Source: Halocynthiibacter sp. SDUM655004 (GTDB taxonomy: Bacteria; Pseudomonadota; Alphaproteobacteria; Rhodobacterales; Rhodobacteraceae). Taken from it: a stretch of 64,000 nucleotides of DNA. A program made the position numbers and the translations under genes. Shown in pieces: positions 57,282 through 62,892 of this stretch. The stretch covers positions 124,001 through 188,000 of the forward strand of contig NZ_JAPDUG010000001.1 in NCBI RefSeq assembly GCF_026015885.1, read 5' to 3'. Numbering within the stretch: the stretch's first letter is position 1; every line of letters begins with the position of its first letter. The notes below the pieces were generated by a model. It was not told where the DNA came from. It made no database searches and saw nothing but the letters and a program-made list of their open reading frames with translations.

Positions 57282-57374
57282 TAAGTTCTTCCATATTTCG
57301 ATGGGTTGGCGCATATTGAAGGTAGTTTAAGGCGCTCCGAGCGTCATAGTAATTCGTATCAGGAGTACAGAGTC

Positions 57375-58211
57375 ATGAGACGCTTGGGTTTCAAGAATAC
57401 AGTCGCAATTGCAATTTTAGGGTCATTCGCAGCAACCGGTGCTATGGCTCAGAGTAATTCCAGCAGCGCGAAATTCTACACGATTTCGGATGTTAAGAGC
57501 GCTGGAGATATTAAAATCCTCTGCGCCTTCAAGGATCTTTCCAATGGTCAGGTTGCGTATCTTCAAAGCATGCCAAACTTCGACGATATCCTCGCGGCTG
57601 CGGTTAAAGTTTGCCCAGATACGGCGCTCGACCTGACAGATTTTGCAACTGCTTCGGTTGGCGGCGGCGATGTCGGAAATGATAAAGACGAAAACCCAGT
57701 TTTTATGGGTGAGCCAAAACGCAAGAAATCTAGCTCCAAGCCAACTTCCGTCAAAACCAAGCCAACCTCCGTCAAAACTGTGCGCGAGTATGATGATGAC
57801 ATAGAGGACGAGGAAGAAGATTCAGGCGACGACGGTAATGACGGCGGCGGCACTGGAGACGGTGGTGGAACTGGCGACGGCGGCGGCACTGGAGACGGTG
57901 GCGGTACTGGCGACGGTGGCGGTACTGGCGACGGCGGCGGCACTGGAGACGGTGGCGGTACTGGCGACGGCGGCGGCACTGGTGATGGTGGCGGTACTGG
58001 TGACGGTGGCGGTACTGGTGACGGTGGCGGTACTGGTGACGGTGGCGGTACTGGAGACGGTGGCGGCACTGGAGACGGTGGTACAGATAGCGACGATGAG
58101 AAGCGCGGTAACGGCAATTCATCCTCTACCAATGGCAACTCTGGTGGTTCCAAAGGTAACGGTAGCAGCACCTCTAGCGGCAACCAAGGGAACGGTCAGT
58201 CCAAAAAATAA
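57375..58211 (+). CDS. Secreted protein with 13 tandem GGGTGD hexapeptide repeats
   Basis: I do not recognise a family. 278 residues from ATG 57375 (AGGAG 9 bases upstream). Signal peptide about 1-25 (ending AMA-QS). A short globular part (about 26-95) contains two cysteines (ILCAFKDLS and VKVCPDTALD) that could form a disulphide. A Lys/Ser/Thr stretch with a repeated KPTSVKT follows, then an acidic Asp/Glu run, the GGGTGD array (about 157-234) and a Ser/Asn/Gly-rich tail. The Gly/Asp repeats suggest a flexible or calcium-binding surface spacer. A strong terminator follows. Repeat number is likely to vary between strains. Confidence 0.8.
   Translation: MRRLGFKNTVAIAILGSFAATGAMAQSNSSSAKFYTISDVKSAGDIKILCAFKDLSNGQVAYLQSMPNFDDILAAAVKVCPDTALDLTDFATASVGGGDVGNDKDENPVFMGEPKRKKSSSKPTSVKTKPTSVKTVREYDDDIEDEEEDSGDDGNDGGGTGDGGGTGDGGGTGDGGGTGDGGGTGDGGGTGDGGGTGDGGGTGDGGGTGDGGGTGDGGGTGDGGGTGDGGGTGDGGTDSDDEKRGNGNSSSTNGNSGGSKGNGSSTSSGNQGNGQSKK
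57843..58076 (+). repeat. Tandem repeat, 13 units of 18 bp, coding
   Basis: Thirteen exact-length 18-base units encode GGGTGD in frame. Units differ only at third-codon positions (GGT/GGC, ACT kept, GGA/GGC/GGT, GAC/GAT), so the peptide is identical in every copy while the DNA is slightly diverged. A partial unit GGT follows at 58077. Confidence 0.97.
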
Positions 58212-59241: not shown

Positions 59242-59264
59242 GCGAGGTTTGTGCGAAACCTCGC
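59242..59264 (-). terminator. Hairpin after the sigma2/RskA-like gene
   Basis: GCGAGGTTT (59242-59250) and AAACCTCGC (59256-59264) form a perfect 9-bp stem with a 5-base loop, 48 bases after the stop at 59313. On the minus strand it is followed by GTCTTTTC, a weak T tract. Confidence 0.7.
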
Positions 59265-59312: not shown

Positions 59313-60149
59313 CTATTCGGTTACAACAGGGCCAGCGGCGATCATTTCAGAAAGCCCGCCGGATTCAACGTCGTCTGAGCCAGCTCTAGCGGTGATCGCC
59401 AGAATGCCGCCATCAAGCTGGGAACGGATCTGTTCGGCTACGATGAAGTCAGTTGCGCTATCCTTAGGTAGGACGCCCAATGACACGGGGATAATAGCAC
59501 CGGAAGGGATTAGCCAAAGCTCCAGTTCAGTTCCGTCCGCGGGTTGCTCTTCTTTGTCCTCGATGTGTACGGCGCCGGAACTCACGTTGTAAGTCAGCGC
59601 AAGAAAAACATCATCGCCTTCTGTTTGAAGGGTTGCGCTATGAGTTGCCACGGGAAGAGGCTCAGGCGCAGGAAGCGTTGCAACACCAATTGCTAGAATT
59701 ATCATAAGTGCGGAAGCGGCACCTAAAAAGAAGCGAAACCAGGAATGTTTCCGCTTCGGGGCTTTGGGCGATGCCTTTTTAGTTGGCGTTGCGACAGCCG
59801 GTTCCGATAACCGTTTCTTTATTGTGAGCTTGATATGCCGTGGCGGCAAAATTGGGACGATGACATCTGGTTCGTTTTTGTCAGCGCTCTGAAACTTTGG
59901 CGTTTGGCGCGCGGTCCAGAAAATCCATTCGATTGGGTCCAGGCCGCTTGCCTGATAGCTGCCAGCAGTTGCCCAGATTGCGAGATACGTATCGAACAAA
60001 GCCTCTTCGGATTGAACACGGCTTCCCAGAGTTTGATTGCAATATCCGAATAATTGCGAGCCGGTCTCATTGTACAGCTTGGAAAGCGCGTCTTGGTCGC
60101 CGTTTCCAATCTGCAGGATCAAATTCTCTAGTTCGTTTGTACTGGTCAT
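59313..60149 (-). CDS. Putative fusion: degenerate ECF sigma region 2 + membrane segment + RskA-type anti-sigma C-terminus
   Basis: 278 residues from ATG 60149 (AAAGGC upstream; GTG at 60152 is an alternative). Residues about 8-82 follow the ECF region-2 pattern: NGDQDALSKLYNETGSQLFG, then a SEEALFDTYLAIWATAG helix and a DPIEWIFWTARQ helix. They align in order with the RpoE encoded at 62128. The basic promoter-contact segment after region 2 and the whole of region 4 are missing. A membrane segment follows at about 138-160. Residues about 170-278 resemble the periplasmic RskA / anti-sigma-K C-terminal domain (LELWLIPSGA, VSLGVLP, LAITARAGSDD). It may be a membrane-held sigma mimic. No separate cognate sigma gene is adjacent except rpoE. 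Confidence 0.65.
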   Translation of the reverse strand: MTSTNELENLILQIGNGDQDALSKLYNETGSQLFGYCNQTLGSRVQSEEALFDTYLAIWATAGSYQASGLDPIEWIFWTARQTPKFQSADKNEPDVIVPILPPRHIKLTIKKRLSEPAVATPTKKASPKAPKRKHSWFRFFLGAASALMIILAIGVATLPAPEPLPVATHSATLQTEGDDVFLALTYNVSSGAVHIEDKEEQPADGTELELWLIPSGAIIPVSLGVLPKDSATDFIVAEQIRSQLDGGILAITARAGSDDVESGGLSEMIAAGPVVTE

Positions 60150-60221
60150 CACAGGCCTTTGGTCGTTCTATGATGTTGCTAGACACGGAAATCGTGGCGG
60201 CATTGAGGGCGGATTTCGTCA

Positions 60222-60251
60222 ATTTTGCAGAACCGTCAAATAAACGGATCA
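60222..60251 (-). promoter_or_regulatory. Weak RpoE-like promoter upstream of the sigma2/RskA-like gene
   Basis: TGATCC (60251-60246) is followed after 18 bases by CAAAAT (60227-60222). The -35 matches the other three sites exactly, but the -10 lacks the TA pair. It overlaps the 3' end of the 166-residue gene. Confidence 0.25.
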
Positions 60252-60736
60252 TATGCCCATTGCAGAAGCGCTTGCCGCTGTTTGGGTCGGCAGAATAGAT
60301 CGTTTGGGTGGCAGTTTGACTTGATTTGCCCTGCATGGCGCGCGAAGGATTTCCAGCGCTTGATCTGAATTGAGTCGATGTTCTCCAACCGTCTGCCCAT
60401 GTAATACCGGCAATACCATTGAAACCAGCCGCGTGGGTCAGGTCCGTAGATCCAACCTTTCTGTTTCCAGACACTTAGAGGTTGGCGGCTTTTGATGCCG
60501 AAATAGTTGAGTTGAACAGATGGCTTGTCAGCAATTTTTGCCATTTCGAACCAGTCTTCGGGAAATTCATCTTGGCAATCGTTGATGTACTTTCCTTCAA
60601 ATACGCCGAGTTCAAGCATTTGCTTTGGCGTATGAAAGGGACGGAACGCTGGGTCAAAATTCTCACCCGGTTCCGCAATGCACAAATACACGTAGTCAGT
60701 TTGAAAGCTATCGTTTACGTGAATCTCGCGGGTCAT
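60236..60736 (-). CDS. Hypothetical protein, Trp/Tyr-rich C-terminal half
   Basis: 166 residues; I do not recognise the family. No signal peptide or membrane segment. The sequence is rich in aromatic residues: QLNYFGIKSRQPLSVWKQKG, then GWIYGPDPRGWFQWYCRYYM. A basic helix with KRWKSFARHAGQI and a C-terminal CRPKQRQALLQWAYDPF follow. The high Trp/Tyr content and Arg-rich helix recall nucleic-acid- or pigment-binding proteins, but that is only impression. It lies between the fasciclin gene (56-base gap holding a terminator) and the sigma2/RskA-like gene (86-base gap), all on the same strand. Confidence 0.72.
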   Translation of the reverse strand: MTREIHVNDSFQTDYVYLCIAEPGENFDPAFRPFHTPKQMLELGVFEGKYINDCQDEFPEDWFEMAKIADKPSVQLNYFGIKSRQPLSVWKQKGWIYGPDPRGWFQWYCRYYMGRRLENIDSIQIKRWKSFARHAGQIKSNCHPNDLFCRPKQRQALLQWAYDPFI

Positions 60737-60792: not shown

Positions 60793-61305
60793 TTAGCAGC
60801 TTGGTTTAGTGCCGGGGAGCAGCACTTTGTCGACAACGTGGATTACGCCATTATCCGCCATAATATCTGCGATAACAACGTTGGCCATTTGACCTGTGCC
60901 GTCAGCTACCATCACCCCGTCAGCGCCGGCTTTGATGCAAAGGCGATCGCTTTCGAGCATTGGTTTCACGTAAGTTGAGCCAGCAGGGATCATGTCTGAG
61001 GTCAGCTTACGGTCGTCTACGTGGTAAAGAAGGACGTTGGTGAGTTGCTGTTTGTTCTCTGGCTTGAGAAGCGTCTCGACTGTGCCTTCTGGCAGAGCAG
61101 CAAATGCATCATTCACCGGAGCGAATACTGTGAACGGACCTTCACCGGAAAGTGCGTCTGCGAGGCCGGCTGCTTGTACGGCTGCAACCAGAGTTGTGAA
61201 GCGCTCATCGCCTGCTGCGATTTCAACGATGTTGTCAGCAGTTGCGGCGGAACCTGCGGCGCTGATTGCGAGTGCTGCTACTGTAGCTTTGATACCAAAT
61301 TTCAT
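60793..61305 (-). CDS. Secreted fasciclin (FAS1) domain protein
   Basis: 170 residues from ATG 61305 (GGAGA upstream; the open frame extends 50 codons further without protein character). Signal peptide about 1-23 (ATA-DN). A single FAS1 domain follows (about 24-165), with the H1 motif FTVFAPVNDAFAALPEG, the central LTNVLLYHVDDRKL and the H2 motif NGVIHVVDKVLLPG. FAS1 proteins mediate adhesion or bind small ligands at the envelope. The RpoE-type promoter upstream places it in the ChrR/RpoE regulon; I recall a fasciclin gene (RSP_1409) in the Rhodobacter sphaeroides RpoE regulon. Confidence 0.92.
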   Translation of the reverse strand: MKFGIKATVAALAISAAGSAATADNIVEIAAGDERFTTLVAAVQAAGLADALSGEGPFTVFAPVNDAFAALPEGTVETLLKPENKQQLTNVLLYHVDDRKLTSDMIPAGSTYVKPMLESDRLCIKAGADGVMVADGTGQMANVVIADIMADNGVIHVVDKVLLPGTKPSC

Positions 61306-61361
61306 TTTATCTTCTCCAAATTGCTGGACTGTTTTGCTAGTCCGTTTCTGTGTTCGTATCT

Positions 61362-61391
61362 CGATTACGCGAGCCGTCTGGAGATGGATCA
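61362..61391 (-). promoter_or_regulatory. RpoE (ECF11)-type promoter of the fasciclin gene
   Basis: On the minus strand TGATCC (61391-61386), an 18-base spacer, then TAATCG (61367-61362), about 57 bases upstream of the fasciclin ATG. Same -35 and same spacing as the two promoters at rpoE. Confidence 0.75.
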
Positions 61392-61443
61392 GAAAATCAC
61401 GGTTTCGTGATGATTTATTTTTAATCGACTGATTTAAAACATA

Positions 61444-61469
61444 AAAACCCGCCAATGTTGGCGGGTTTT
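61444..61469. terminator. Bidirectional terminator after rpoE-chrR
   Basis: AAAACCCGCCAA (61444-61455) and TTGGCGGGTTTT (61458-61469) are perfect 12-base complements with a 2-base centre. On the minus strand it follows the chrR stop by 26 bases and ends in a T run (TTTTTATGTTTT). It insulates the fasciclin promoter from rpoE-chrR read-through. Confidence 0.9.
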
Positions 61470-61495: not shown

Positions 61496-62131
61496 CTAGA
61501 TTTTGAATATCGGCTGCAACAATCGCGGCATTAACGAGTTAAACTTTAGTGGAGCATCCGTTGCGGCCAAGCAGATGCACGGATCACCTGCATCAGCGAT
61601 TGGGGTATGCTCAACATCTTCGTTGGCAACCTCAACATCTCCGACACCAAAACGTCCACCTTCGTCACTAAAGCTACCTTGCAGAACGAGCGTCAGCTCA
61701 AGGCCTCCGTGGGAGTGATCTGGCATGGCTTGACCTGGGGGAATGTGAAGCAGGCGAACAGAACCATTCTCTCCAGCAGAGATGATGCATTGCTTTACGC
61801 CCAGCCCAAGAGATTTCCATTTTGGCGGCTGCCCTTCGAGCGCCTCCATAACCGGGCCGGGGAGTGCGCCTTCGCGCTCATATACCGGTTCACGGACGAA
61901 ATCATCGTCAAGCTGCGCTAGAATGCTCGCCTTCAAATCTTTTGAAAGGCGTTCCTCCAGCGTCGTTTCAAGTACGACACCGCCAGCGGCATTGTGCGCC
62001 TCAAGCGAAGCGCGGCAGTCGTCACATAGTGACACATGCGAGGCAACAACCAACGCAAAAGGCTGTGGAAGTGTTCCTGCGGCATATGATGCGAGCAGGT
62101 GGTCTGGTAAATGATGGGTAATCGCGGTCAT
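61496..62131 (-). CDS. chrR: Anti-sigma factor ChrR (zinc, cupin type)
   Basis: Zinc-dependent anti-sigma factor that holds RpoE inactive until singlet oxygen triggers its turnover. 211 residues. The N-terminal anti-sigma domain has the ZAS zinc ligands His7, His32, Cys36 and Cys39 (SHVSLCDDC), matching the H-H-C-C set of Rhodobacter sphaeroides ChrR. The C-terminal cupin-like domain keeps His139, His141, Glu145 and His175 (MPDHSHGGLELTLVLQG and EDVEHTPIAD), so both metal sites are intact. It overlaps rpoE by 4 bases. Confidence 0.94.
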   Translation of the reverse strand: MTAITHHLPDHLLASYAAGTLPQPFALVVASHVSLCDDCRASLEAHNAAGGVVLETTLEERLSKDLKASILAQLDDDFVREPVYEREGALPGPVMEALEGQPPKWKSLGLGVKQCIISAGENGSVRLLHIPPGQAMPDHSHGGLELTLVLQGSFSDEGGRFGVGDVEVANEDVEHTPIADAGDPCICLAATDAPLKFNSLMPRLLQPIFKI

Positions 62132-62700
62132 GATCGCATCCCCTTTAACTCATGTCTTAGGCGCTCCAACCCCAGTCGGACGCGCGATTTGATTGTTCCA
62201 AGCGGTAACCCCGTCTGGTTGCTGATCTCCTGGTGGGTCAGCTCACCGAGGTACACCCTCTCGATTATTTCCCGTTGGTCCGGTTTAAGCCGCTGAATGG
62301 CTTCTCTGAGCTTGGTAGCTTCTTGTTCTAGTGCGAGCGACTGTGACGCATCTGGTTCCGGATCCGGCTCTTGCGTGAGCTCTTCCGGAATGGGGCGCCG
62401 CTCCTTTCGGATCATGTCGATCATACGGTTGCGGGTGACCTGATAAACCCACGCAGAGACTTGCGCTCGGTTCGGGTCAAATTGATCTGCCTTACGCCAA
62501 ACTGTCAGCATTACGTCTTGAACGATCTCTTCGGCTTGACCCGAAGATACTCCAGAACGCATGACAAAACCTTTCAGGCGTGCGGCGTAATGGTCAAACA
62601 AAGCCCCGAATGCGGCTTTGTCGCGATTGTCGCGGACGGCAATCATCCACTGTGTTTCTTGTGATAGCGCGCTTTGCGTGTTCACGTCGGTCCTATCCAT
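62128..62700 (-). CDS. rpoE: ECF RNA polymerase sigma factor RpoE (ECF11)
   Basis: Sigma factor of the singlet-oxygen response. Start set at ATG 62700 (190 residues); a GTG at 62685 has a better ribosome-binding site (AGGA), and the frame is open to 62880. Region 2 spans about 15-85 (FGALFDHYAARLKGFVM, AEEIVQDVMLTVW, VYQVTRNRMIDMIRKERR). Region 4 spans about 130-185 (LKPDQREIIERVYLGELTHQ, TGLPLGTIKSRVRLGLERLR). Followed by chrR with overlapping codons. Its upstream region carries a promoter of its own target type, so it should be autoregulated. Confidence 0.93.
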   Translation of the reverse strand: MDRTDVNTQSALSQETQWMIAVRDNRDKAAFGALFDHYAARLKGFVMRSGVSSGQAEEIVQDVMLTVWRKADQFDPNRAQVSAWVYQVTRNRMIDMIRKERRPIPEELTQEPDPEPDASQSLALEQEATKLREAIQRLKPDQREIIERVYLGELTHQEISNQTGLPLGTIKSRVRLGLERLRHELKGMRS

Positions 62701-62803
62701 TTGCCAAGCGGGTATACCCGAACGCCTCACTGGTGGTGAGACATAGGTGCGCCGCCGTGGCTTGAGGGCTGTTTGTGTTTCTGCTTCTACAACTATCATA
62801 CTT

Positions 62804-62833
62804 CCAATACGGGGCAGCAGAAAATTTGGATCA
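62804..62833 (-). promoter_or_regulatory. RpoE-type promoter of rpoE-chrR
   Basis: On the minus strand TGATCC (62833-62828), an 18-base spacer, then TATTGG (62809-62804). This would start transcription about 95 bases before ATG 62700. The -35 is half of the palindrome GGATCA-AAAA-TGATCC shared with the divergent promoter. Confidence 0.65.
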
Positions 62834-62837
62834 AAAA

Positions 62838-62867
62838 TGATCCGAACTGTTTTTTTCGGCGTAATAT
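62838..62867 (+). promoter_or_regulatory. RpoE-type promoter of the FAD-dependent oxidoreductase
   Basis: TGATCC (62838-62843), an 18-base spacer, then TAATAT (62862-62867), 25 bases before the ATG at 62893. Four bases separate it from the divergent rpoE -35, so the two holoenzymes would compete or pack back to back. Confidence 0.75.
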
Positions 62868-62892
62868 CAGTCAACAACAAGCTGGAGAGACC

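Follow-up and report, generated by a model that had tools for sequence, protein, structure and literature searches.

The question raised by this locus is what a single protein can be that joins part of a sigma factor to the membrane-anchored part of an anti-sigma factor. Such a gene switch normally consists of two proteins, the sigma factor and a membrane protein that keeps it in check. The gene, which we call FUS, encodes 278 amino acids at positions 59313-60149 (minus strand) of the window, i.e. the whole 64,000-nucleotide stretch of DNA analysed here. A sequence-only reading had seen in it a fusion of sigma region 2 to a membrane-anchored RskA-type domain, and matches to the NCBIfam model PRK12514 and, over the cut-off, to the Pfam model PF10099 confirmed this fusion. 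In the reading that we prefer, to which we give a probability of about 0.5, a SigK-type operon was collapsed by a deletion, and FUS would be a membrane protein under envelope control whose sigma2 is self-masked and dead for transcription.

The FUS frame is uninterrupted from the ATG at 60149 (with a GTG at 60152) to the stop codon at 59313-59315 on the minus strand. Residues 1-83 (59901-60149, minus strand) form the sigma region 2 domain, as judged from the PRK12514 match, the alignment and the AlphaFold2 model; they comprise regions 2.1-2.3 with region 2.4 not recognisable, so that the sigma-like part described earlier is present but ends near residue 83 rather than 75. In the profile searches RskA_C (PF10099) was matched at 30.5 bits (cut-off 29.4), and residues 1-82 matched PRK12514 strongly (E 1.6e-17 for the whole protein, 9.4e-19 for the fragment alone), but Sigma70_r2 (PF04542) taken alone scored 19.6 bits (E 8e-4), below its cut-off of 24. 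On the PRK12514 match we consider the sigma identity of the N-terminal part secure.

What had been said of the missing parts was also correct. Pfam found no region 4 match in FUS, and region 4 is deleted in the alignment with intact relatives; the same alignment shows that region 2.4 is absent, that the IDRLR stretch is gone and that the position of Asn82 is occupied by Gln. Asn82 is equivalent to N88 of sigmaH, which acts as the wedge at the -10 element (PMC6411747). It is present in all 34 intact members of the reference set and replaced in the four fusions described in this work (Q/D/D/D), with the qualification that other polar residues occupy the position in other sigmas and that Asn is likewise missing there from a few separate sigma genes of the wider set. 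Since region 4 and the part that reads the -10 element (region 2.4 and the wedge Asn) are both absent by sequence, FUS cannot be a working sigma factor.

After a junction at residues 84-95 (59865-59900, minus strand), placed by alignment and spacing comparison where intact operons have about 461 nt, residues 96-118 (59796-59864, minus strand; PPRHIKLTIKKRL) appear to be helix 4 of the anti-sigma domain (ASD), retained as the only one of its four helices. The identity of this segment, which we infer by reference to the solved complexes (PMC7406223), draws on three lines of evidence: the NF052375 match in FUS begins at profile position 49-50, the ASD ends of relatives matched the region of residues 96-118 in tblastn searches (E 0.002 and 0.012), and AlphaFold2 predicts a helix there. 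In G001, a genome of the same genus, the corresponding helix reads PPAHLKSAIDARL, versus PPRHIKLTIKKRL in FUS. The earlier description of a sigma-like instead of a sigma-binding domain before the membrane holds as far as sigma2 is concerned, but helix 4 (residues about 103-115) survives between sigma2 and the membrane. The transmembrane helix follows at residues 137-157 (59679-59741, minus strand), assigned from its hydrophobic sequence and from helix 42-62 of the model of residues 96-278, and residues 164-278 (59316-59660, minus strand) make up the periplasmic RskA_C beta domain, on the PF10099 match and the model. The family motif of RskA_C, EPxGGSPTGxPTG, is replaced in FUS by RAGSDDVESGGLSE. 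A compensated frameshift was considered as the cause and rejected, for the motif is absent from the other frames too.

The two halves of FUS were modelled separately, as whole-protein alignments of both halves misaligned the anti-sigma rows. In the AlphaFold model of residues 1-140 the N-terminal fold consists of the sigma2 helices, as the sequence-only reading had anticipated, with block pLDDT values of 94-98 for residues 1-80 and 91 for residues 81-90. Foldseek ranked the SigK/RskA and SigW/RsiW complexes first among its PDB matches (probability 1.00, though with E-values no better than 0.04-0.07); a search with the sigma2 alignment as profile had SigK (4NQW) as its best PDB match (E 5.5e-21). 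The model of residues 96-278 contains helix 4, one transmembrane helix and a folded beta domain, the latter half yielding no meaningful relative in Foldseek. Both models place helix 4 at residues 103-115, with pLDDT of 50-63 in the cytoplasmic (1-140) model.

In the solved complexes it is regions 2.1-2.2 of sigma2, the beta' clamp-binding face, that are contacted by helix 4, and sigma4 is contacted by helices 1 and 3 (PMC7406223). The parts deleted from FUS and the parts kept in it are thus matching halves of the sigma/anti-sigma interface, and by keeping sigma2 together with helix 4 the deletion left one matched half of that interface in cis. Because the sigma2-binding helix is kept, the sigma2 face of FUS is probably covered in cis: helix 4 would fold back onto the face otherwise open to the beta' clamp and would thereby leave sigma2 self-masked.

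The ancestry of both halves lies with SigK-RskA (ECF18/19-type, Mycobacterium tuberculosis, 4NQW) and the alphaproteobacterial PRK12514 sigma/RskA operons. We searched 395 genomes of the family, drawn at about one per genus, and 142 of them (~36%) matched the FUS query at E<=1e-7; among the matches listed, only FUS itself spans both halves in one stretch. In the paired loci read in the family, sigma and RskA are separate adjacent genes that mostly overlap, and a fasciclin gene then follows the pair in most loci examined with wide flanks. In a plasmid collection, too, sigma and anti-sigma are annotated as separate genes wherever both are annotated. Sigma residue 83 and ASD helix 4 lie 36 nt apart in FUS; in 36 intact loci the gap measures 437-494 nt, with a median of 461. 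A single deletion, of about 425 nt, in an overlapping SigK-type sigma/RskA gene pair would be the simplest account of the origin of FUS and would have joined the two frames. Gone from FUS are sigma region 2.4, region 4 and ASD helices 1-3; sigma2, ASD helix 4, the membrane helix and the periplasmic domain are kept in frame.

The source genome itself encodes one RskA_C protein, one fasciclin protein and no intact sigma/RskA copy. No convincing remnants of sigma4, of the ASD (helix 4 itself apart) or of a fasciclin gene were found beside FUS, and a scan of genome contigs found no close relatives of FUS. G001 has RpoE, ChrR, the fasciclin gene and a 166-aa gene in the same order and carries an intact sigma/RskA pair at another locus, its sigma scoring 278 bits against PRK12514 (above the cut-off) and its anti-sigma standing at the cut-off of NF052375.

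That FUS is absent from the syntenic site of G001 is one of several observations that fit another view, in which the gene is a functionless remnant of a sigma/RskA/fasciclin system since lost, its frame still open through chance or because toxic misfolding is mildly selected against. The FUS branch is the longest in the tree (2.25, where intact family members reach 0.92 at most), and about half of the family-invariant residues are lost in both halves (19 of 34 kept in sigma2, 14 of 28 in RskA_C), together with the whole RskA_C motif, where no intact relative falls below 74% and 79% of the invariants, respectively. Lys32, Arg39, Gln52 and Asn82 are among those lost. Against a relic stand the 278 codons free of stops and frameshifts despite such divergence, the preservation of the sigma2 fold and of core residues (much of the hydrophobic core among them), the position in an operon with a hairpin after the gene, and the independent recurrence of the architecture in another genome, G1090, with a well-kept RskA_C (22 of 24 invariants). 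The GC content by codon position (0.59/0.45/0.52) is as in neighbouring genes, and the other frames are full of stops. In a neutral simulation run to equal loss of invariants, about four stops accumulated on average and the probability of none was ~0.23 x 0.09 = 2%, with indels uncounted and on the assumption that the residue losses came after the fusion. The pattern of divergence fits changed rather than absent constraint, and we regard a relic as possible but doubtful.

The surroundings of FUS suggest how it might be expressed. We take TGATCC-N18-TA to be the RpoE-type promoter pattern. It occurs at three sites in the 64-kb window (1.3 expected by chance), all where promoters are expected: before the fasciclin gene (61366-61391, minus strand), before rpoE (62808-62833, minus strand) and before a divergent gene; in G001 and G010, too, the pattern lies close to the fasciclin gene. 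Reading along the minus strand, the sigma factor RpoE (62128-62880; true start probably downstream of its promoter site) and its neighbour, the anti-sigma ChrR (61496-62131; TIGR02451 over the cut-off), are followed by the fasciclin gene (60793-61455; PF02469, E 1e-33), which is likely the first of the operon and whose true start is probably the internal Met of MKFGIK, by the conserved hypothetical gene of 166 aa (60236-60736), by FUS and by a terminator-like hairpin 48 nt after it (59242-59264). We found no such hairpin between the fasciclin gene, the 166-aa gene and FUS. The earlier placement of FUS downstream of an RpoE-type promoter and the fasciclin gene stands, and FUS is apparently the third gene of an RpoE-driven fasciclin operon; as such it would be made from that operon and seated in the inner membrane.

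Two features of this region are recorded as side observations. RpoE-type promoter sites lie back-to-back at 62808-62863, between rpoE and a divergent oxidoreductase-like gene. The 166-aa protein, which gave no family match at a meaningful E-value, has homologues of ~50-71% identity scattered over Alphaproteobacteria, Vibrio, TM6 and candidate-phyla MAGs, and this scatter suggests horizontal spread. Synteny through this neighbour was tried as a guide and set aside, the gene being patchy and its linkage not conserved.

Membership in what appears to be the transcription unit of an RpoE-controlled gene also favours the proposal that FUS is a sigma mimic, whose membrane-tethered sigma2 titrates an anti-sigma such as ChrR, making the RpoE response stronger or longer. 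Like PhyR, FUS has a sigma-like fold that is degenerate and does not read promoters (PMC8103513); unlike PhyR, it is anchored in the membrane, belongs to another sigma lineage and has no sigma4-like part, nor was a receiver domain detected in it by Pfam. Its sigma2 is of the PRK12514/SigK lineage, with only ~27% identity to the RpoE orthologue of G001, and the local RpoE is matched at 3 of 10 helix-4 contact positions (a hand count from the alignment and Table 2 of PMC7406223). On these grounds we consider ChrR an unlikely target of titration. Further points against a mimic are that the helix 4 of FUS would compete in cis, that anti-sigmas are mostly orthogonal between sigmas (PMC7406223), that no RskA-type anti-sigma other than FUS, hence no remaining partner of that type, was found in the source genome, and that the genome holds PhyR itself in a separate, ordinary PhyR-NepR-EcfG set. 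A mimic of this kind thus seems improbable to us.

FUS might instead act as a decoy for RNA polymerase, its sigma2, tethered or released, binding the beta' clamp and limiting other sigmas. Regions 2.1-2.2 are indeed the clamp-binding part (PMC7406223), and the sigma2 fold is kept in the model. At that face, however, the invariant Gln52 is Phe, and Lys32 and Arg39 are both Gln; the change of Gln52 in particular speaks against a decoy, and the clamp site would in any case be covered by helix 4. We consider this explanation very improbable.

Under the preferred reading of a collapsed, self-masked sigma2 protein, cleavage of FUS, should it occur as in other RskA- or IutY-type proteins, would release a sigma2 fragment. 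Such a fragment could only compete, for RNA polymerase or for an anti-sigma helix 4, and would not support transcription.

A search across the phylum returned one stretch matching query residues 4-227, in G1090, which belongs to another genus of the same family. The gene (L121:5315-6121, G1090b) encodes 269 aa with sigma2, helix 4, a transmembrane helix and RskA_C, and both Pfam domains are over their cut-offs (45.7 and 65.9 bits). The same genome holds at L121:3703-4914 a fusion of 403 aa that combines a full-length sigma with the ASD, a transmembrane helix and RskA_C, and at L123 an intact sigma/RskA pair with fasciclin. The two fused ORFs lie in tandem at L121 (G1090:C60) beside genes resembling N-acetylmuramoyl-alanine amidase and penicillin-binding protein. 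A further single-ORF fusion of full-length sigma, ASD, transmembrane helix and RskA_C is found in G376 (L125:2113-3324); Pfam gave no region 2 match for it, its sigma region 2 being degenerate.

In the tree G1090b groups with its own clade. AU tests rejected the monophyly of FUS and G1090b (p = 8.4e-5) and a common origin of all four fusions (p 0.01); a pairing of the two G1090 fusions (G1090a with G1090b) was not rejected, nor was that of FUS with the G376 fusion (G376f). The form made of sigma2, helix 4, transmembrane helix and RskA_C would thus have a separate origin in one or more other genera of the family, and this independent recurrence speaks for some function of the architecture, which may be useful to the cell. 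A wider generalization, that RskA-type operons collapse repeatedly into membrane-anchored pseudo-sigmas, the minimal sigma2-helix 4 form having arisen independently at least twice as a new self-masked regulator that on proteolysis releases a transcription-dead competitor, we put forward only as an unlikely extension. An assembly or annotation artefact is hardly credible: although the exact FUS protein is known from one genome, the gene lies inside a contig of 1.58 Mb, its frame is diverged yet codon-typical, and similar independent fusions occur in other genomes.

Fused sigma/anti-sigma proteins are already known in IutY and in several ECF groups. FUS resembles IutY of Pseudomonas putida (ECF243, FecI/FecR type), in which a cytosolic sigma and a periplasmic anti-sigma-type domain form one membrane-spanning protein (PMC5411451), in that its sigma part and periplasmic anti-sigma part share one ORF. 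In the characterised IutY the sigma remains functional and is set free by Prc/RseP, and the periplasmic part is of the FecR type (PMC5411451), whereas FUS has sigma2 alone and an RskA_C part. ECF48/52/53 and ECF36 likewise have a sigma fused to an anti-sigma and transmembrane segments but are other ECF groups, described as sigmas with regulatory extensions and not as sigma2 alone (PMC8999054). With a normal RskA, FUS shares RskA_C after one transmembrane helix and differs in having no helices 1-3 and no RskA_C motif; from SigK-RskA it differs further as one polypeptide devoid of sigma4 and region 2.4. MPT70/83 are fasciclin proteins. The fasciclin linkage of the operons related to FUS corresponds to the control of MPT70/83 by SigK in mycobacteria (PMC7509140). 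What sets FUS apart is a sigma that is dead by sequence, with half of the sigma/anti-sigma interface surviving in cis; the reduction is repeated in another genus. If functional, FUS would show a transcription switch turned into a membrane regulator and would offer, in a minimal natural form, a test of the two-interface model of how sigma and anti-sigma bind.

Elsewhere in the window, at 57306-58211, we observed an ORF in which GGGTGD is repeated in tandem about a dozen times, flanked by an acidic stretch on one side and an SNG-rich tail on the other.
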